Assembly (NCBI GenBank): GCA_023253775.1
Contig: JALRFI010000076.1
Span: 1 to 45,771, forward strand
DNA: 45,771 nucleotides
From: Crocinitomicaceae bacterium
Lineage (GTDB): Bacteria > Bacteroidota > Bacteroidia > Flavobacteriales_D > Crocinitomicaceae
Direction of reading: 5' to 3'
The position numbers and the translations under genes were made by a program. Under the pieces are notes generated by a model. It made no database searches. It saw nothing but the letters and a program-made list of their open reading frames with translations, and was not told the DNA's origin. The first letter of the stretch is position 1, and every line of letters begins with the position of its first letter. Shown one piece after another: positions 1,138 through 13,367 of this stretch.

Positions 1138-2217
1138 ATGAAAGCTCGCTATTCTTTTATGCTATTGATCCTCCTTCTTACATCCTGTGGGGAAAGCACG
1201 AAAAAAAGTACAGAAAAATCAGAGAAAAGCGAAGATATCCCTGTTGAATTTGCGAATTGCTTTATGATCACTCACTCTAATGATCATTACATTCTAACCA
1301 TTCAAAATCCGGACAAAAAAGATCACTTTGAGCTAGTAATTGGCAAAAATTCTACTACCAAGAATTGTGATCTTACAATTCCAACCAATCGAATGGTACT
1401 TCTGTCTGCCAGCATGATCGGTAGGGCTGCTCTTTTAAAAACCTTTGACAAAGTTATCGGAATTTCAGACACCGCATTTCTTTTCAATGAAACTTTCAGA
1501 TCAAGAGCATCAAATGGAATGATCACATCGTTTGGAGATGAAGGAAATTTCCCAATCGAAAAACTGATCAAAAGTGATCCTGACATAGTCATGTTCAGTG
1601 ATTTCGGAAATGAATTTCCCAAGCAAAAAGAATTAAAAAAAATGGGGATCATCCTTATTCCTGACCTTGACTGGCGAGAGGAGCATCCTTTAGGGAAAGC
1701 TGAATGGATTCTTGTCCATGGCTTACTTACCGGAAGATTAAAGGAAGCCCAAAAGATCTTCAATCAAATAAAGACCGATTATCTGCAATTAACCGCTAGA
1801 ACAAAACCCTCTGAGACACGTTGTATGAGTGGATTTTTATATGGCGATACATGGTGGTCTCCATCCGGAGAAAGCTACACGGCAAGACTATTCAACGACG
1901 CAGGAATAAAGTATGTCTACTCAAAAACAAATGGTACCGGGAGTATCCCCAGAAGTATCGAGGAGATCTTATATGATTGTAAATCCGCAGATATCTGGTT
2001 TAACCCAGGATTTGATTCAAAGAAAAAAATACTCCAAATCTCAAGCAAGATAAAACACCTTGAAAGCTTCAAAAAAAATAAGGTATTCTGTTATTCGCAT
2101 AACATGAATTATTTCTGGGAAATGAGCGCCGTGGAACCTCAAAAAGTACTTTCAGACCTGATCTCAATAAGAAGTGGAGACCCTGTAAATTTATACTTTT
2201 ACAAAAAACTGAATTAA
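1138..2217 (+). CDS. ABC transporter substrate-binding lipoprotein (BtuF/FecB-like, PF01497 type)
   Basis: Lipobox LLLTSCGES; body with IEKLIKSDPDIVMFSDFG typical of periplasmic binding proteins; followed by permease and ATPase genes. Confidence 0.85.
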   Translation: MKARYSFMLLILLLTSCGESTKKSTEKSEKSEDIPVEFANCFMITHSNDHYILTIQNPDKKDHFELVIGKNSTTKNCDLTIPTNRMVLLSASMIGRAALLKTFDKVIGISDTAFLFNETFRSRASNGMITSFGDEGNFPIEKLIKSDPDIVMFSDFGNEFPKQKELKKMGIILIPDLDWREEHPLGKAEWILVHGLLTGRLKEAQKIFNQIKTDYLQLTARTKPSETRCMSGFLYGDTWWSPSGESYTARLFNDAGIKYVYSKTNGTGSIPRSIEEILYDCKSADIWFNPGFDSKKKILQISSKIKHLESFKKNKVFCYSHNMNYFWEMSAVEPQKVLSDLISIRSGDPVNLYFYKKLN

Positions 2218-2219
2218 CT

Positions 2220-3212
2220 GTGTCTAGCGCCTACAAGAGAAGCCTCATCTTACTACCTATAACCTTGGGACTACTTGCGTTCACACATGTATTGTCTGGT
2301 AAATTTGATATAACCTTTTCAGAATTGGTATCGAGCTTTACAAGGTTCGACCCTAATGACCTTAATCATGTGATCATTCAGGAATTCAGGGTACCACGAA
2401 CATTAACCGCCATTCTGGCCGGAGCGTCCCTCTCCCTGGCAGGAATGTTAATGCAAACCCTTTTCCAAAACCCACTTGCAGGTCCTTATATCCTGGGGAT
2501 CAATTCTGGTGCAGCATTTACAGTGGCACTGGGAACACTTACCGGAATCTCATTTTTCCAATCAGATGCAGGCTTGCTTGGTTCTGCTCTCATCGGGGCA
2601 TTTATTTTCGGACTGATAATTCTCACATTTTCATTTTTCCTGCGAAATATTGTCTCTTTGCTTTTAATTGGGATCATGATCGGCAGTTTCACCTCAGCCA
2701 TAACCTCTATCCTACTTTCGATCAGTACTCCCGAGAACATGAAGATCTTCACACTTTGGGGATTAGGCTCGTTACAAAAAGTAGAATCCGGTCAGATCGT
2801 TTTCATATTTATCTCATTTGTGATCGGCGTTTTACTCTTGTTAACTCAGCTTAAAGGAATCAATGCACTTGTTTTGGGAGAAAATGCGGCTTCAAGCCTT
2901 GGAATCAATCTCCGTAGCCTAAGAATAGCCATGATCTCAATCACTGCCCTACTTGCTGGAATGGTGACTGCCTTTTGCGGACCTATCAGCTTTGTCGGAC
3001 TTGCAATTCCCAATTTAAGTCGGATCATATTCAAGACAGCGAATCACAGGAAGCTCACTTACGCAAATACCATTCTAGGAGCTCACTTTTTATTGATCGC
3101 CGACCTTATTACCATCTGGTTTGAACCAATTATATTGATTCCAATTAACGCTATCACCGCCTTGATCGGAGCCCCTTTTATTATGTTAATCATCATAAAG
3201 AAATTGAAGTGA
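2220..3212 (+). CDS. Iron-siderophore/cobalamin-type ABC permease (FecCD/BtuC family)
   Basis: RVPRTLTAILAGASLSLAGMLMQTLFQNPLAGPYILGINSGAAF is the BtuC/FecCD signature; GTG start 2 nt after previous stop. Confidence 0.93.
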   Translation: MSSAYKRSLILLPITLGLLAFTHVLSGKFDITFSELVSSFTRFDPNDLNHVIIQEFRVPRTLTAILAGASLSLAGMLMQTLFQNPLAGPYILGINSGAAFTVALGTLTGISFFQSDAGLLGSALIGAFIFGLIILTFSFFLRNIVSLLLIGIMIGSFTSAITSILLSISTPENMKIFTLWGLGSLQKVESGQIVFIFISFVIGVLLLLTQLKGINALVLGENAASSLGINLRSLRIAMISITALLAGMVTAFCGPISFVGLAIPNLSRIIFKTANHRKLTYANTILGAHFLLIADLITIWFEPIILIPINAITALIGAPFIMLIIIKKLK

Positions 3213-3907
3213 TCGAATTGAAAAACATATCAATCGGATACACTTCTACATTGATTGAAGTCAATGAAATGATACTAAGACCAGGTGAAATAAAAGCACT
3301 GATCGGTGCCAATGGAATGGGTAAAACGACGTTTCTAAAGACTTTAATGAATCAAATCCCACCCATAAGTGGAACAGTAACAATTGATGACATTTCTCTT
3401 CACAAACTGGATAGAGCTAAACTCTCAAGCCTTGTGTCTTTTATTGGTCATGGATTCAAAGGAGTGGATGGACTTTCCGTTTTAGATTATATACTGCTCG
3501 GCAGAACACCATATCTCGATCGTTTTGGCTCAATTTCATACGTCGATAAAGAAGTCGCATTTGAAGCGTTAAAATCAGCCGGGATAAAGTCCTTGTCAGG
3601 TCTTAATACATCTGAACTTAGTGACGGTCAACTTCAGTTAGCCTCAATCGCTAGAGCGCTGGCACAGGAGACACCTTATATTATCATGGATGAGCCCACT
3701 ACCTTTCTCGATTATAGAAATAGAGAGATCATATTCAACCTTTTGATCGACCTATCACACAAGGGAAAGGGAATTTTATTTTCCACTCATGAACTTGATA
3801 TGGTTTCAAAGCATCAAATTCCCGTTGCTGCCATTTCTAACGAAAACAAAATGATCCTTTTTGATCATTGTCCCAAAATGGAGAAGCTGATTGAAATATG
3901 CTTCTGA
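3209..3907 (+). CDS. ABC transporter ATP-binding protein (BtuD/FecE-like)
   Basis: Walker A GANGMGKTTF, signature LSDGQLQ, Walker B YIIMDEPTTFLD; GTGA overlap with the permease stop. Confidence 0.93.
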   Translation: MIELKNISIGYTSTLIEVNEMILRPGEIKALIGANGMGKTTFLKTLMNQIPPISGTVTIDDISLHKLDRAKLSSLVSFIGHGFKGVDGLSVLDYILLGRTPYLDRFGSISYVDKEVAFEALKSAGIKSLSGLNTSELSDGQLQLASIARALAQETPYIIMDEPTTFLDYRNREIIFNLLIDLSHKGKGILFSTHELDMVSKHQIPVAAISNENKMILFDHCPKMEKLIEICF

Positions 3908-4057
3908 TACTGACTAATCAAGAATACAGACAGACTAAAGAAGCTGGTAGAAAAGCAGTTCAACGAAAAAAGCAAGATTATCAAAGAGACGTGAACTATT
4001 GAATAATTTTAGGATAAATCGTCATTATTTTCAATAAAAAACTAATTTTTTTATCCC

Positions 4058-7000
4058 TCAAATCACTTCCCAATTCATTAATATTTCCTTTAGATCAGTA
4101 CAAAATTTTGAAGTTAGTTCTGGATTTAATTCTGACTTTTCTAAAGCAATTGCCATTTGATACAGCCCATCAAGTCCAAAAAGATCTAATGAAGGTTTTA
4201 ATTGGTGAGAAAGTCTATTTATTTTCAGTGAATCTCCCATTTTGAGAGCGCCCTCAATTTCTTCGACAATTTTTGAAGTACTCTTGTAAAACGTAGCCTT
4301 AATTGTCTCAACAAATTCTTCATCTCCATCGCTAAGTGCAATCAATTTCGAAAATGAGGGTGTGAGACTAACAGTATTTATTTTATCCTTCAACAAACGA
4401 TTTAGAAGACTTTCTAATTGACTGGAATTGAATGGTTTTCCTAAACAATAAGTCATTCCAACTTTTTTGTAATATTCAACGTCCTTTTGGGAGACATTGG
4501 CAGATAATGCCACTACGGGTATCGACAATTTCAATTCATCTTTAATTATTCTAAAAGCCGTAAGGCCATCCATTACTGGCATCTGAATATCCATCAGGAC
4601 AATATCAAAAGTTTCCTTCTTAAGAATATTAATAGCCTCTTGTCCATTATGGACTACCTGAAAATCAGCATTCATTTTCGTTAATAACGAATGTATCAGC
4701 AATTGATTCATGTCATTGTCCTCAGCAACTAAAATTTTAATTTTCTTAAGATCAATACTTTCTTTTGCTACATCATTTTCATTTTTAATAGATCTTTCAT
4801 CGATCTTTTGGAGCTCTAATTCAAAATGAAAAAAGGATCCCTGACCAAGTTCACTTTCCAATTTTAATTCTCCGCCCATGATTGCCACTAAACTTTGACT
4901 AATCGGTAACCCTAAACCAGATCCCCCAAAATTCCTTGAAATACTTGAATCTTCCTGAACAAAAGTATCGAAGATAATTTTTTGATTTTCAGAACTAATT
5001 CCTTTCCCTGTGTCAAAAACCTTGAAGAATATTTTGTACGACGTTTCACTTTCATCGTTCATCTCTGTCTGAATCCCAACACTGCCTTCAGAAGTAAACT
5101 TTATTGCATTATGCATCAAATTGAATAATACTTGAGTAATTTTCAAGTTATCGGCTAAGACAAAGTTTTTTATTCGATCATCAAAATAAACCTTCAAGTC
5201 AATGTTTTTATCATCTGCCTGTGGCTTGAAACTATTATAAACGTTGGTCACCAGATGTCTGAGATCTACTTCAGCTAGGGAAATTTCCATTTTACCTGAT
5301 TCTATTTTGGAAAAATCCAGTATGTCATTGATCAAACTCAATAGATTATTTGAAGAAGTCTTGATCGCTTGAATATATAATGATTGTTCGTCATTTAGAT
5401 CTGTTTCACTTATTAGCTCTATCATTCCATTAATTGCATGAAGCGGCGTTCTAATCTCATGACTCATATTGGCCATGAAAGCCTCTTTTAATCTTACAGA
5501 TTGTAATGCTTGATTTTTTGCATCAATAAGCTCTTGTTCTGACTCAATTCTTTCTGTAATATCAATATGAATTCCCAAAGAACCAATCACTTCACCACTT
5601 TCGTTAAAAATAGGTGCGCCGGAAATAATCACCCATTTAATTTCTCCTGACTTGCATCTAATACGAACTTCATACACACCAGATTCTCCTCTTGATCGAT
5701 TTGAAAGCTGTATATCCAAAGATTTCAAATCTTCTTCAAATGCTAATATTTCACGTGCATTGTTGCCGATTAATTCTTCTGCTGAATAGCCAACTAATTT
5801 GCAGAATGCTGGGTATGCTTTTATTATTACTTCGTTCTCATCAACCTCAATGAGACCAAAATCGAGATTTTCAATGATTTTGCTGTACTTATCCTCGACT
5901 TTTCGTAAACTCTCTTTATGTTTTACAATTGCTGTAACATCTTCATATCTCCAAATGAAGCCATTCATTTTATTATTTTCAACAACCGGAATAAAATCTC
6001 TTTCTAGTATCCTTCCGTCTTTCATTTCCAATTTCTGGCCATAAACTGGTTTTTCGGATTTAATTATTTCCTCAATATCACTGAGAAAATCAACAGTATT
6101 TTTAAAGAGCTGAGCTGTATTCTTCGCTGCTTCTTTACAATCAGTACCTTCCAATTGATCTGGTCCTATAGGTATGTTGAAAATATCACAGAATAATTGA
6201 TTCGCCATGATCACTCTTCTGTCTTGAGATTCTGCCAATACACCAACTTGCATATTTTCAAGAATTGCAGATAATCGGGAATTTAAATTGATCAGCTCCT
6301 GCTCATATTTTAAAATGTTGGATACATCTTTTAAATAAAAATTGATGTATTTACTATTTGGAAATGGCACTATAGATATTTCATATGTCTCACCTTGGAT
6401 ATCCTTTAATTTAGTGTATGCTTTACCCTCACTTTCTATAATTTCAGACATGAAATCCATCCAGAAAAAGTGAGATTTAATTGATAAGATTTTCTGGGCG
6501 GAAGGATTCCCATACATGATTTGCCCATCATAATTTATTCTAATAATTGGATGGGGACTTTCATCTGGAAATTGAGCTAATCCAAAAATAGTTTCATTCT
6601 TTTCAATGAGCTCATCGCGTTGCCTTAATGTTTGTTCAAGAAGTTTATTCAGATCTTCGTTCACTATTTGTTGTGATTTCAGCAGCTGCAGATGATCGGT
6701 AATTGGGTCATGTATGGCAAAATCTGTAATCAGCAAATTATGAAGGTTAAGGTCGATTATATCTGTGATCCAAGGAGAGTTAACATAAAGAATCTCATCT
6801 CTACTCTCGATAAAAACAAACTGACCCCTAAAACTTGTTTTAATTGGAAATTCTAAAGATTCAAGAATTACAACCATATTTTGGTGTTCTTGAAATGACT
6901 TGAAATGCATTTCAATCGAAAGTCTTGGTCTTGTGAATTTGAATACTTTATCAAAGTCCATTCCTTCAACATCACCAATTATCTTTTTCATTGAAGAACC

Positions 7001-7093
7001 CACATAACCAAGTTTCAAATCTCTGCCAATTGTCAGGCTAAATGGAAAAATCTTATCGATCTCAGATGTGTTGAAGAAAAATTTATTGTGCAT
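4058..7093 (-). CDS. Soluble hybrid sensor histidine kinase: HNOBA (H-NOXA)-like domain, coiled coil, three PAS-like domains, HisKA, HATPase, REC, Hpt
   Basis: N-terminus FPFSLTIGRDLKLGYVGSSMKKIIGDVEGMDFDKVFKFTRPRLSIEM...FRGQFVFIESRDEILYVNSPWITDIIDL...LLITDFAIHDPITDHLQLLKSQQ resembles HNOBA; MSHEIRTPLHAINGMIE (HisKA), NLMHNAIKFTSEG/DTGKGIS/GGSGLGLPIS (HATPase), ILVAEDNDMNQ...VLMDIQMPVMDG (REC), RLSHQLKPSLDLFG (Hpt). No transmembrane stretch seen. Confidence 0.92.
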   Translation of the reverse strand: MHNKFFFNTSEIDKIFPFSLTIGRDLKLGYVGSSMKKIIGDVEGMDFDKVFKFTRPRLSIEMHFKSFQEHQNMVVILESLEFPIKTSFRGQFVFIESRDEILYVNSPWITDIIDLNLHNLLITDFAIHDPITDHLQLLKSQQIVNEDLNKLLEQTLRQRDELIEKNETIFGLAQFPDESPHPIIRINYDGQIMYGNPSAQKILSIKSHFFWMDFMSEIIESEGKAYTKLKDIQGETYEISIVPFPNSKYINFYLKDVSNILKYEQELINLNSRLSAILENMQVGVLAESQDRRVIMANQLFCDIFNIPIGPDQLEGTDCKEAAKNTAQLFKNTVDFLSDIEEIIKSEKPVYGQKLEMKDGRILERDFIPVVENNKMNGFIWRYEDVTAIVKHKESLRKVEDKYSKIIENLDFGLIEVDENEVIIKAYPAFCKLVGYSAEELIGNNAREILAFEEDLKSLDIQLSNRSRGESGVYEVRIRCKSGEIKWVIISGAPIFNESGEVIGSLGIHIDITERIESEQELIDAKNQALQSVRLKEAFMANMSHEIRTPLHAINGMIELISETDLNDEQSLYIQAIKTSSNNLLSLINDILDFSKIESGKMEISLAEVDLRHLVTNVYNSFKPQADDKNIDLKVYFDDRIKNFVLADNLKITQVLFNLMHNAIKFTSEGSVGIQTEMNDESETSYKIFFKVFDTGKGISSENQKIIFDTFVQEDSSISRNFGGSGLGLPISQSLVAIMGGELKLESELGQGSFFHFELELQKIDERSIKNENDVAKESIDLKKIKILVAEDNDMNQLLIHSLLTKMNADFQVVHNGQEAINILKKETFDIVLMDIQMPVMDGLTAFRIIKDELKLSIPVVALSANVSQKDVEYYKKVGMTYCLGKPFNSSQLESLLNRLLKDKINTVSLTPSFSKLIALSDGDEEFVETIKATFYKSTSKIVEEIEGALKMGDSLKINRLSHQLKPSLDLFGLDGLYQMAIALEKSELNPELTSKFCTDLKEILMNWEVI

Positions 7094-7094
7094 T

Positions 7095-7640
7095 TTAACT
7101 AATCTTTATTTCAAATCGATCATGCCACATAATATCATTCGTCGAACTTATAAGCTCAATATTGATTGTCTCTTTGAACATTTCTGCAAGCCCAAAACAT
7201 AGACCTTGTACAAAATGTGTTAATCCTTCACGACTTGAATAATAATGTAGAATTAAATGACCATCACCAAGTTTTTCCACTTTAAACTCAGGTGGATTGA
7301 GTTTTGGATAAATCAGCATTATTCGGCCATGGAAATTCGGAAGGTTGAACAAGAAGGTTTCAAGATTACTACCTCCTGCTTTCATCAGATCTCCATATTT
7401 CTCATATCCGACTTTTAATATCCAATATCTACCAAAGGCTGTAAGTAACTCTTGAGCAGACCAACCTAAAATTTCTGTCGATGCACCTATTAATTCATAG
7501 GTAATGTCATCATCGTATGCTTCGTTATTGAGAAAATACTCATAAGAAACATTTGCCTTTTCTTTAATCTTTACCCATTGTTCAGTTCCAAAATTTTCTT
7601 CAACTAAACCTTGGATTGCTTGGTTCACTATTCCGTACAC
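7095..7640 (-). CDS. H-NOX heme-based nitric oxide/gas sensor protein (HNOB domain)
   Basis: MYGIVNQAIQGLVEENFGTEQWVKIKEKA start, NFHGRI (candidate proximal heme His), YYSSREGL = YxSxR heme-propionate motif; 181 aa. GTG start. Confidence 0.93.
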   Translation of the reverse strand: MYGIVNQAIQGLVEENFGTEQWVKIKEKANVSYEYFLNNEAYDDDITYELIGASTEILGWSAQELLTAFGRYWILKVGYEKYGDLMKAGGSNLETFLFNLPNFHGRIMLIYPKLNPPEFKVEKLGDGHLILHYYSSREGLTHFVQGLCFGLAEMFKETINIELISSTNDIMWHDRFEIKIS

Positions 7641-7650
7641 ACCGGTGAAA

Positions 7651-8994
7651 TTAAATTTTACCTTCTTTTATCATTCTATAAATCGTTGATTTTCCGACTT
7701 GTAATTTATCCGCCACTTTGAGTACATTATTATTATATTTTGCTAAAAAGAACTTAATAATCCTATTGTTATATTCTTCGAGGGACAATTCCTGGTTCAT
7801 AAGATCCTCTATGTCATCTGATCTCATTAATTGAATATCCCCTTCCATAATTGTATTACCATCAGCCAAAACACATGCTACGTCAATGAGAGATTTCAAT
7901 TCTCTTACATTCCCGGGATAATTATACTTCATCAATTTTTCCATGGCCTCTTTGGAAAGAACTTTAACAGCCATTTTATTCTCATCACAAAAAGTCTTAA
8001 TGAAAAATTTAGATAAGAGCAAAATATCCTGTTCTCTGTCCTTTAAATCAGGTAATTGAATTGTTAATCCTGCAAGTCTGTAGTAGAGGTCTTCCCTAAA
8101 ATTACCGTTCTTAACTTCTTTTAAGAGATCTCTGTGAGTTGCGACGATCAGACGTATATCTATCTCTTTTGATTTGTTTGACCCCAGTCTTGTAATTTCC
8201 CTTTCTTGCAAAACTCTGAGTAATTTTGATTGCATGTTTAAATCCATTTCTCCAATCTCATCCAGGAAAAGAGTTCCCCCATCAGCAAGCTCAAATTTAC
8301 CCTCTTTGGATTGATCAGCACCAGTAAACGCTCCTTTATCAAACCCAAATAACTCACTCTCGATCAATTCTTTTGGTATTGCAGCAACATTGATTGCAAT
8401 AAAAGGCTTTTTCATTCGAACCGAGTTATAATGAATTGCCTTCGCTGCTAATTCTTTTCCGGTACCTGTTGCTCCTGTGATCGAAACGGTAATGTTTGTT
8501 TTGGTTGTCTTCTCTAAAAGAGAAAATACCATTTTCATGGCTGAACTAGAACCGACCATATATTCGCTGAAACGATATTTTTCGGATACGACATCACTCA
8601 AATTTTCTAATTCACGGTTCATGTTTGCTTTTTGAATAGCTTTATGAACTACAAGCCAGAGTGTATCTAATGCTTTTTGATCCTTACTTAAATAATCATA
8701 TGCCCCGCCTTTCAGCATTTCGACTGCAGTATCGATTTCATGTTGTCCAGACAACACAATAACCTCCGAATTTGGACAAGAGTCTTTTACTTTATGAAGT
8801 AAATCTATTCCTGAGTAATCGGGTAAACCGCAATCTAATGTCACAACATCGGGATTTTCTACCAACTTTTTTATCAATTCTGCTCCAGTGGTACACAGCT
8901 CAACTTCAAAATCTGGATCCATAGACAATTTATGTCTGATCAATTTGCCATACAGGGGATCATCCTCAACAATGAAAATCTTGGCCTTCTTCAT
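7651..8994 (-). CDS. NtrC-family sigma54-dependent response regulator (REC-AAA+-Fis HTH)
   Basis: REC IFIVEDDPLYG...VVTLDCGLPDYSG; AAA+ GATGTGKELAAKAIH; sigma54-contact motif GAFTGA; C-terminal Fis-type HTH VLKVADKLQVGKSTIYRMIKEGKI. Confidence 0.95.
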   Translation of the reverse strand: MKKAKIFIVEDDPLYGKLIRHKLSMDPDFEVELCTTGAELIKKLVENPDVVTLDCGLPDYSGIDLLHKVKDSCPNSEVIVLSGQHEIDTAVEMLKGGAYDYLSKDQKALDTLWLVVHKAIQKANMNRELENLSDVVSEKYRFSEYMVGSSSAMKMVFSLLEKTTKTNITVSITGATGTGKELAAKAIHYNSVRMKKPFIAINVAAIPKELIESELFGFDKGAFTGADQSKEGKFELADGGTLFLDEIGEMDLNMQSKLLRVLQEREITRLGSNKSKEIDIRLIVATHRDLLKEVKNGNFREDLYYRLAGLTIQLPDLKDREQDILLLSKFFIKTFCDENKMAVKVLSKEAMEKLMKYNYPGNVRELKSLIDVACVLADGNTIMEGDIQLMRSDDIEDLMNQELSLEEYNNRIIKFFLAKYNNNVLKVADKLQVGKSTIYRMIKEGKI

Positions 8995-9016: not shown

Positions 9017-9031
9017 TTCCCAAATTAGGAA
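9017..9031. promoter_or_regulatory. Imperfect palindrome TTCCCAAATTAGGAA (TTCC-N7-GGAA), candidate operator upstream of the H-NOX operon
   Basis: 15-bp dyad 23 nt upstream of the regulator start codon; a related dyad lies upstream of the orphan REC gene (34049-34063). Confidence 0.35.
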
Positions 9032-11094: not shown

Positions 11095-12909
11095 GTGTTG
11101 AGTCCAACAAATAAAAAAGAAAAGGAAAAGATCACCAAATCTTCAATTGAAAAAGCTCGGGGTATCTTCGCGTATCTTCGTCCATACGCTGGGATGTATT
11201 TGATCGGGTGGATTTTTCTGGCTTTATCTTCAGCAATAGGACTGATCTTTCCCTACTTAATGGGTAAACTTCTCGGAGGAAGTGAAATTTCCGACAGCAG
11301 TGATGCTGTAAAACTAATCAACCTGGATAATATTAACGGTGTAGCTTTTGCACTGTTTGTATTATTCGCTTTCCAGGCACTATTCTCATTTTTTCGGGTG
11401 GTTATTTTCACGAACGTTACCGAAAATGCACTTCGTGATTTAAGAAACGATGCATTAAGCAAATTGATCTACATGCCAATGGACTTTTTTAATCGAAATA
11501 AGGTTGGAGAATTGACAAGTAGAATCTCATCGGATATTACTCAGATTCAGGATACACTGAAGACAACGATCGCTGAATTCTTCAGACAATTAGTGGTTAT
11601 CATTGGAAGTATTGCTTTTTTGTTCTTTATCTCATGGAAACTTGCCCTGATCATGCTAGGTACAGTTCCAGTGATGGCCTTAATTGCGGTCTTTTTTGGG
11701 CGATTCATTCGTAAACTATCAAAACAGGCCCAAGATTTCTCAGCACAATCCAACTCAATTATAGAAGAGGCGCTTACTGGGATAAGCAATGTCAAGTCCT
11801 TCACCAATGAAATTTTCCTGATAAACAAATACAAAAGTTCCTCACAAGAGATTCGAGACCTGAACGTAAAGAGTGGTATATGGAGAGGAATCTTTGTTTC
11901 TTTCATTATTTTCTGTCTTTTCGGAGCAATTGTCTTCATCATATGGAGAGGACTTTTAATGACATTAGGAACAAATCCGGAATTGAATACTGAAGGATTC
12001 TTTCAATTCATTATGTTTACAATGATGATGGGAGCTTCTGTAGGATCTGTTCCTGAATTGTATGCCGGAATACAGAAGGCTATTGGTGCTACTGAAAACT
12101 TAATGAGCATTATTCATGAGGACACAGAACTCAAATCACATCATGGAAGTAAAACTCCTCCATTAAGCGGAAAGATCGCCTTTGAAAATGTCAATTTCTC
12201 TTATCCACAGCGTAAAGACATTGAAGTTCTCAAGGATATCAGTTTCAGTGTAGAATCAGGCGAAACAATTGCTTTAATCGGCTCATCAGGATCAGGTAAA
12301 TCTACCATAGCCTCTTTGATCTTAAGTTATTACGAGGTAAATAAAGGCAACATATTCTTTGATAATGTTCCTGCGGGAGAAATCGTGCTTGAACACCTGA
12401 GAAAGCAAATGGCGATCGTACCACAGGACGTCATCCTTTTCAGTGGATCAATTAGAGATAATATTCTTTTTGGCCAACCGAACTCAAATGAAGAAGAGAT
12501 CATTGAAGCAGCGAAAAAAGCGAATGCCTGGGAATTCATTGAAAAGTTTCCCAATGGTTTGGATACTGAAGTCGGTGATCGAGGTATTCAACTTTCCGGC
12601 GGGCAAAAGCAACGAATTGCAATCGCCAGAGCTATTATTAAAGATCCAAAGATCCTGATCTTGGATGAAGCTACCAGCGCACTGGACTCAGAGTCTGAAA
12701 AGCTCGTTCAAAGTGCCTTAGATAATCTAATGAAAGGTCGTACCTCAATTGTCATTGCTCACCGGTTATCTACCATCAGAGAGGCGGATAAAATTCTGGT
12801 AATCAAAAACGGAGAGATCAGTGAAGCTGGAAGTCATGATTCGTTAATCGCTTCGAAGGGAGATTACGCAAATCTTGTACAGTTGCAATCCATGGATCTG
12901 ATAGGATGA
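11095..12909 (+). CDS. ABC transporter, fused permease-ATPase (MsbA-like exporter); start uncertain (ORF opens at 10963)
   Basis: Walker A GSSGSGKSTIA, LSGGQKQRIAIARAI, ILDEATSALDSESE; N-terminal TM domain. The 10963 TTG start overlaps the rpmH promoter region, so GTG at 11095 (VLSPTNKKEKEK) is more plausible. Confidence 0.9.
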   Translation: MLSPTNKKEKEKITKSSIEKARGIFAYLRPYAGMYLIGWIFLALSSAIGLIFPYLMGKLLGGSEISDSSDAVKLINLDNINGVAFALFVLFAFQALFSFFRVVIFTNVTENALRDLRNDALSKLIYMPMDFFNRNKVGELTSRISSDITQIQDTLKTTIAEFFRQLVVIIGSIAFLFFISWKLALIMLGTVPVMALIAVFFGRFIRKLSKQAQDFSAQSNSIIEEALTGISNVKSFTNEIFLINKYKSSSQEIRDLNVKSGIWRGIFVSFIIFCLFGAIVFIIWRGLLMTLGTNPELNTEGFFQFIMFTMMMGASVGSVPELYAGIQKAIGATENLMSIIHEDTELKSHHGSKTPPLSGKIAFENVNFSYPQRKDIEVLKDISFSVESGETIALIGSSGSGKSTIASLILSYYEVNKGNIFFDNVPAGEIVLEHLRKQMAIVPQDVILFSGSIRDNILFGQPNSNEEEIIEAAKKANAWEFIEKFPNGLDTEVGDRGIQLSGGQKQRIAIARAIIKDPKILILDEATSALDSESEKLVQSALDNLMKGRTSIVIAHRLSTIREADKILVIKNGEISEAGSHDSLIASKGDYANLVQLQSMDLIG

Positions 12910-13367
12910 AACCAATCAGTTTATTAATAATTTATTTTTTAATTGAAGGATGCAGTAATAACAGGCCTGATCCTGAATTTACAAGCTGGGAAGGAACGTG
13001 GAAATCTTCTTCCGGCTCATCCTCTTTTACTGAAACCTGGACAAGAATAAATACCCAAATGTGGTCGGGCACAGGTACATGGAGAATAAATGATTCGGTC
13101 TCTTATCAGGAAAAATTATCCCTTCGAAAGAATGGAAAAGATTGCGTTTATTCGGCCATAGCTCCGGGGCAGAACAATGAGCAATCCGTTGAGTTTATGT
13201 TGAGTTTATTTACGGACAGCACTTGGGTATTCACAAACCCAAAGCACGATTTCCCAAATAAAATTGAGTATCAATTGCTCTCCTCTCGAATGATGAAAGT
13301 AGACGTTACCGGAATCGAAAAAGGAAAACCCAGATCATTAAGCTTCAGCTTGATCAAAAAGCCCTAA
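12906..13367 (+). CDS. Putative lipoprotein, DUF6265-like
   Basis: Cys-containing signal LIEGCSNN; FTSWEGTWKSS...ETWTRINTQMWSGTGTW...FTNPKHDFPNKIEY pattern of DUF6265; ATGA overlap with the ABC gene. Confidence 0.7.
   Translation: MKPISLLIIYFLIEGCSNNRPDPEFTSWEGTWKSSSGSSSFTETWTRINTQMWSGTGTWRINDSVSYQEKLSLRKNGKDCVYSAIAPGQNNEQSVEFMLSLFTDSTWVFTNPKHDFPNKIEYQLLSSRMMKVDVTGIEKGKPRSLSFSLIKKP

Follow-up and report, generated by a model that had tools for sequence, protein, structure and literature searches.

A three-gene operon on the minus strand of a contig from an uncultured aquatic Crocinitomicaceae bacterium (JALRFI010000076.1; phylum Bacteroidota) probably encodes a cytoplasmic phosphorelay which responds to nitric oxide (NO) and controls genes for the cell surface and matrix. 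The whole stretch of DNA that was analysed, 45,771 nt in length, is referred to below as the window. In order of transcription the genes specify an NtrC-type sigma54 activator (enhancer-binding protein, EBP), an H-NOX protein and a soluble hybrid histidine kinase (Table 1). The logic by which an H-NOX protein, a kinase and a regulator are joined is already known, since such pathways have been published for Vibrio and Shewanella; what we add is the likely target of the pathway, that is, a predicted operator, candidate promoters and a candidate regulon. The evidence is computational throughout. The genome to which the window belongs is a metagenome-assembled genome of 2.5 Mb in 240 contigs (85.7% complete) and contains one H-NOX gene.

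The coordinates, strand and intergenic gaps (10 nt and 1 nt) of the three open reading frames, as given in a first-pass annotation made from the letters alone, were reproduced exactly. The annotated start codons are right: the H-NOX protein can be aligned with its relatives and with solved H-NOX structures from the first residue onwards. The genes are presumably co-transcribed as a single operon. Genomes with H-NOX numbered 27 of 396 in a sample of the phylum, 50 of 199 in the order and 83 of 240 in the family. The same annotation had proposed a survey of neighbourhoods. Ours took in 120 H-NOX-bearing regions plus the window (121 in all), and the EBP-H-NOX-kinase arrangement was met repeatedly: at 31 Bacteroidota loci, the window included, an EBP gene of this kind immediately precedes H-NOX on the same strand, which leaves 90 other regions. 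Since 31 of the 121 regions show this order with gaps close to zero, the linkage is not due to chance. The gene after H-NOX at the EBP loci is a kinase gene, and every complete one ends in receiver (REC) and histidine phosphotransfer (Hpt) domains or, at three loci (L052, L084 and L203), has Hpt encoded by a separate gene that follows at once. H-NOX and an HNOBA kinase also have a REC-AAA54 activator as neighbour in Myxococcales and other records (L297, L299, L301) and in Acidobacteria (L293), and the triad may therefore extend past the Bacteroidota.

Pfam identifies in the EBP a Response_reg domain, a Sigma54_activat domain (234 bits) and an AAA lid. The REC domain comprises residues 6-107 with D54 as acceptor; the AAA+ domain carries Walker A (GATGTGKE) and Walker B (GGTLFLDEIG) motifs and the GAFTGA loop (residues 221-226), and the C-terminal helix-turn-helix has the recognition helix KSTIYRM (M441). 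Its description as a sigma54 activator is borne out by these GAFTGA-type features and by a sigma54 gene elsewhere in the genome (PF04552 on contig C13, E = 6e-53). More specific identities were rejected. The protein scored under the curated cut-offs for NtrC (TIGR01818; 386.8 against 558.6 bits), PrsR (TIGR02915; 378.3 against 502.6) and NorR (NF003451; 312.4 against 476), and has a REC in place of the GAF sensor domain of the last.

Profiles PF07700 and PF07701 had been named beforehand as the check on which the heme-sensor assignment could fall, and both match: the former (HNOB) covers positions 1-162 of 163 on H-NOX (158.3 bits, cut-off 25.5), and the latter (HNOBA) matches the kinase with 65.2 bits. 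HNOBA, HisKA, HATPase_c, Response_reg and Hpt domains all exceed their Pfam cut-offs in the kinase, which also has PAS domains, and its catalytic residues (H545, the N and G boxes, D835 and H963) are intact. Together with D54 of the EBP they make up a complete His-Asp-His-Asp relay in sequence, so that each structural part of the chain proposed in the annotation, from heme sensor through REC and Hpt to EBP, is present in one gene string. The marks of an H-NOX/HqsK-type system are likewise found, namely H-NOX beside a hybrid kinase with the relay residues, an Hpt domain and an EBP, all in one operon. A hydropathy scan revealed no likely membrane helix in the EBP, H-NOX or kinase, the highest 19-residue value in the kinase being 1.16.

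The heme residues of H-NOX are intact (proximal H104, P117, and Y133, S135 and R137 of the YxSxR motif at 133-137), and H104, P117 and YxSxR are invariant across 14 aligned members. The distal residue is Phe143, at the position of I145 in the beta1 subunit of soluble guanylate cyclase, and is near-invariant in both of the H-NOX types described below. In H-NOX pockets a distal Tyr stabilises O2; with this residue absent the pocket is predicted to be NO-selective, and the residues present are consistent with NO as the ligand. It is improbable that the sensed gas is O2 or CO, or that this H-NOX is a heme-free redox sensor. H-NOX proteins of other lineages do bind O2 or respond to oxidation (V. 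cholerae; PMC7108781). Here Phe143 replaces the O2-stabilising Tyr, the nearest solved structure is that of the Nostoc protein Alr2278, and a Cys-cluster redox site is ruled out because H-NOX contains just one Cys.

With NO as the preferred ligand, the pathway may be envisaged as follows. NO would bind to the ferrous heme, and NO-bound H-NOX would alter the activity of its partner kinase via the HNOBA/PAS region. Phosphate would pass from H545 to D835, thence to H963 and, with the EBP as the presumed partner, to D54. The phosphorylated EBP, a putative DNA-binding protein, would then recognise TTCC(C/T)-N5-GGGAA and drive sigma54 promoters approximately 70-110 nt downstream. The regulon would concern the cell exterior: its own operon and at least three operons for secreted surface proteins or those sorted by the type IX secretion system (T9SS) and for folding factors and, in related genera, a cluster for exopolysaccharide export and synthesis directly after the kinase. 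On the Vibrio precedent, NO would probably lower kinase output and turn the regulon off, leading to dispersal. The sign of this response is the least certain step, and we lean towards it only slightly.

The predicted operator is the palindrome TTCCTAATTTGGGAA (minus-strand reading). Its location 22 nt before the EBP start codon suggests autoregulation, perhaps in the sense of repression given that position, and resembles the placing of sites in L052, L186, L193, L198 and L203. Several relatives also possess TTCCC-N5-GGGAA in a gap of 115-140 nt following the kinase. With at most one mismatch to either form, palindromes precede the EBP at 17 of 31 loci (0.5 in shuffles) and follow the kinase at 14 of 27 (0.3 in shuffles; 11 exact against 0.005 expected), counts which include some loci where the palindrome was first spotted by eye. 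Exact TTCCC palindromes number five in 255 kb of EBP loci and none in 1.12 Mb of H-NOX loci lacking this EBP.

Palindrome form and EBP recognition helix vary together. The helix KSTIYRM (or VYRM) is found with TTCC(C/T)-N5-GGGAA at 18 loci and KS(T/S)IYR(L/I) with TTCTC-N5-GAGAA at seven; loci with the helices IYKM, IYLL and IYNL have neither form. At one YRM locus (L188) the site is missing directly before the H-NOX-linked EBP and an exact one lies further up the gene string. This covariation, and the absence of the palindrome at loci with other helices, point to the EBP itself as the binder. It is very improbable that the palindrome is a site for some other DNA-binding protein and lies near the EBP operon incidentally: palindromes do occur in genomes where no H-NOX-EBP locus was found, and those genomes, where tested, hold an EBP ortholog. 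In L188 (genome G643) the EBP gene is tandemly duplicated before H-NOX, the exact TTCCC palindrome lying upstream of the preceding PAS-domain gene.

Assigning the EBP further targets in the window's own genome (G000) requires caution. The genome contains 66 one-mismatch palindrome sites against 59 for a reversed control, and single sites are therefore credible only by position and orthology. Orthology was judged with a close relative, G649, the EBP of which is 96% identical. In G000 two AT-centred near-palindromes, 31 nt apart, precede a gene for a GEVED-type surface protein (contig C100), and others precede genes for an FKBP-repeat protein (C153; apparently in the same operon as the C100 surface protein), a large Ig_7/CHU_C-type secreted protein (C111), and a 180 amino acid secreted protein with a 1195 amino acid protein (C157). 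The G649 counterpart of the last possesses PKD and Por_Secre_tail (T9SS) domains. Each of the four has an orthologous counterpart with palindromes in G649, the tandem pair included. TGGCAY follows the palindromes on C100, C111 and C157, and these three spacings (102, 103 and 109 nt) are identical in the two genomes. Among 18 congeners the FKBP-repeat protein was found only in G000, G649 and G653. All three combine the EBP with H-NOX, and palindromes are present at this protein in G653 as well. Comparison with relatives suggests that the operon sets whether certain cell-surface proteins (in relatives, a sticky polysaccharide coat) are made. The sole exact palindrome of the window's genome (C169, position 9001) is inside a coding sequence, has a GC-rich centre and was treated as a chance occurrence.

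In the relatives the palindromes are likewise followed by a TGGCAY element which resembles a sigma54 promoter, with G(C/T) at -12 in most loci of the second H-NOX type. Counted from the first base of the palindrome, it begins 69-71 nt downstream in L054, L065, L068, L069, L216, L217 and L218; the spacing is 68-69 nt in L057, L204 and contig C54 of G643, and 88-109 nt in other regions. At several loci this element is followed by genes for an orphan protein of ca. 127 amino acids, a stand-alone REC, and then polysaccharide genes specifying a Wza-like Poly_export/SLBB lipoprotein, a Wzz/GNVR protein, a flippase-like protein and a GT4 glycosyltransferase. Export genes lie within ca. 10 kb at 9 of the 31 EBP loci against 1 of the 90 others, and Wzz-like genes at 12 against 4. 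A gene of ca. 750 codons after the operon in several relatives was considered as the NO reductase NorZ and rejected, as Pfam assigns the products to the Wzz/GNVR chain-length proteins.

The H-NOX proteins at the EBP loci fall into two deeply diverged types, which form two clades with full support. Type A (MYGIVN..., Alr2278-like), to which the window's protein belongs, is accompanied by an HNOBA kinase at every such locus, and with type B (MKGIVFTEF...) HNOBA was not detected in the kinase at any. In the EBP tree loci of the two types interleave, with four changes on the best tree and 3-5 in bootstraps; strongly supported branches force only one. This interleaving, set against the clean split in the H-NOX tree, makes it likely, if not proven, that the output module stayed in place while sensor cassettes were exchanged on it.

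A number of observations count against the scheme as a whole. In the window's genus -24 (TGGCA) is strong, although -12 is weak or displaced. No palindrome occurs on C141, the contig bearing the sole Poly_export gene that was detected in the window's genome, and exopolysaccharide was rejected as a target there. The EBPs with YR(L/I) helices form one clade, so that the change in helix and palindrome was probably a single one seen in seven loci. An EBP ortholog (62-64% identical) persists in congeners without this H-NOX locus, some of which have similar palindrome-promoter pairs; the regulon therefore predates or outlives the link to NO and is not strictly tied to it. These congeners are what would be expected if the EBP and its surface regulon were real and the kinase responded mainly to other signals via its PAS domains, H-NOX being a minor or facultative component inserted into an older EBP/kinase pair, and the mixing of H-NOX types in the EBP tree but not in the H-NOX tree also fits such swapped sensors. 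We regard this alternative as unlikely, if still a serious one: the H-NOX gene is placed directly between those of the EBP and the kinase, almost without gaps, and each H-NOX type goes with its own form of kinase N-terminus (A with HNOBA, B without), which argues for a working H-NOX-kinase pair. The wider form of the NO-responsive phosphorelay we propose, in which a self-contained NO-to-sigma54 circuit for surface and matrix genes is widespread in Bacteroidota, with constant EBP, operator and regulon, two swapped sensors, an operator-helix code and convergence with the syp system of Vibrio fischeri, has in our estimate about an even chance of being correct.

Three described H-NOX networks and two sigma54 systems bear comparison. 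The Vibrio regulator LuxO is a sigma54 EBP. In V. parahaemolyticus and V. harveyi the pathway runs from H-NOX through HqsK and LuxU to LuxO, and NO-bound H-NOX inhibits the kinase (PMC6759604). The order of components (H-NOX, hybrid kinase, Hpt, sigma54 EBP) is that of the window; unlike the window, Vibrio shares LuxU and LuxO with quorum sensing, has small RNA output and places no dedicated EBP beside H-NOX. In the squid symbiont V. fischeri, HnoX acts through HahK, SypF/LuxU and SypG on syp polysaccharide, and the output is biofilm matrix (PMC12369376). There the hnoX-hahK operon is apart from the regulator gene and Hpt resides on SypF or LuxU, whereas the Bacteroidota window combines EBP, H-NOX and a kinase with its own Hpt in one operon; HNOBA on the kinase of type A loci and the distinct predicted operator are further differences. 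The Shewanella oneidensis H-NOX/HnoK network has a dedicated transcription factor, HnoC (PMC8738867). Shared with the window's system are a kinase under H-NOX control, a dedicated transcription factor and feedback of the network on its own regulon; the difference is that HnoC is a repressor relieved by phosphorylation rather than a sigma54 activator. The other outputs of the Shewanella network are cyclic di-GMP enzymes. PrsK/PrsR are sigma54 regulators of exopolysaccharide/PEP-CTERM clusters (TIGR02915; PMC1569441, PMC9850573); PrsR is also a REC-AAA-HTH (helix-turn-helix) activator tied to polysaccharide genes, in a system without H-NOX. Lastly, sigma54 promoters in Flavobacterium psychrophilum precede genes for protein quality control and for proteins that are exported, as well as the operon which encodes the T9SS adhesin SprB (PMC9723704), targets of the same sort as the window's candidate regulon but with no NO link. 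We found no paper on the one-operon version (dedicated sigma54 EBP, HNOBA hybrid kinase and fused Hpt) or on the palindrome operator, in a search that did not extend to most subscription journals.

Most of what is known of biofilm dispersal triggered by NO comes from Proteobacteria. The operon offers a complete candidate pathway, from NO to specific promoters of polysaccharide and surface genes, for the Bacteroidota, which are major particle- and surface-associated bacteria in water. The comparison suggests that the logic linking H-NOX, kinase, Hpt, sigma54 EBP and matrix polysaccharide arose on more than one occasion, and that H-NOX sensors serve as input modules which can be swapped. Operator and recognition helix changing together would, if true, give a readable specificity code.

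Table 1. Features of the operon and its surroundings (positions in the window)
Feature	Position	Strand	Remarks
Palindrome TTCCTAATTTGGGAA (minus-strand reading), predicted EBP operator	9017..9031		22 nt upstream of EBP start codon
NtrC-type sigma54 activator (EBP)	7651..8994	-	447 amino acids; Pfam, residues; near-identical synteny in L186 and L193
H-NOX (HNOB), predicted heme-NO sensor, type A	7095..7640	-	181 amino acids, GTG start; Pfam, alignment
Soluble hybrid kinase HNOBA-PAS-PAS-HisKA-HATPase-REC-Hpt	4058..7093	-	1011 amino acids; Pfam
HNOBA stretch of kinase	6854..7072	-	Residues 8-80; PF07701, 65.2 bits (cut-off 23.4)
HisKA phospho-acceptor domain of kinase	5294..5488	-	Residues 536-600; Pfam
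Internal REC domain of kinase	4403..4735	-	Residues 787-897; Pfam
C-terminal Hpt domain of kinase	4085..4297	-	Residues 933-1003; 28.6 bits (cut-off 24.6)
Short gap after kinase, position of the stand-alone REC gene of relatives	3907..4057	-	Weakly similar non-coding stretch only

The flanks of the window's operon, with a YifB-like gene upstream and an ABC transporter downstream, are the same in its closest relatives, L186 and L193. Convergent FecB/FecCD/ABC-type genes for iron or cobalamin uptake (positions 1138-3907) adjoin the operon, a neighbourhood that is kept in L051, L186 and L193. L186 and L193 carry a fourth gene, lost from the window, for a REC of 147-149 amino acids with a hydrophobic tail. 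Stand-alone RECs with such a C-terminal segment (hydropathy 2.0-2.4) follow the kinase in L051, L052, L084, L186, L190, L193 and L203, which suggests a membrane-anchored receiver. The conserved protein of ca. 127 amino acids between kinase and REC (L054, positions 12546-12929; L065, L068, L069, L216, L217, L221) has no Pfam match and is found at 7 of the 31 EBP loci and at none of the 90 others. IHF/HU sites are often found between sigma54 enhancers and promoters, and a recurring GATTATCAACA-like stretch between palindrome and TGGCAY (e.g. L151, L216, L316) resembles such a site by eye. In-frame TGA stops interrupt the H-NOX copies on contigs C118 of G640 and C8 of G447, which are possibly pseudogenes or assembly errors. 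In another family of loci, f6 (L102, positions 4538-5671; L103, L115, L116, L119-L121 and others), two NO-sensor families are seemingly combined in one gene string, in the order REC, H-NOX, PAS kinase, a 377 amino acid FIST_N/FIST_C protein, second kinase, Hpt and REC; the FIST protein of L102 is NosP-like (FIST_N and FIST_C, 131.6 and 124.2 bits).

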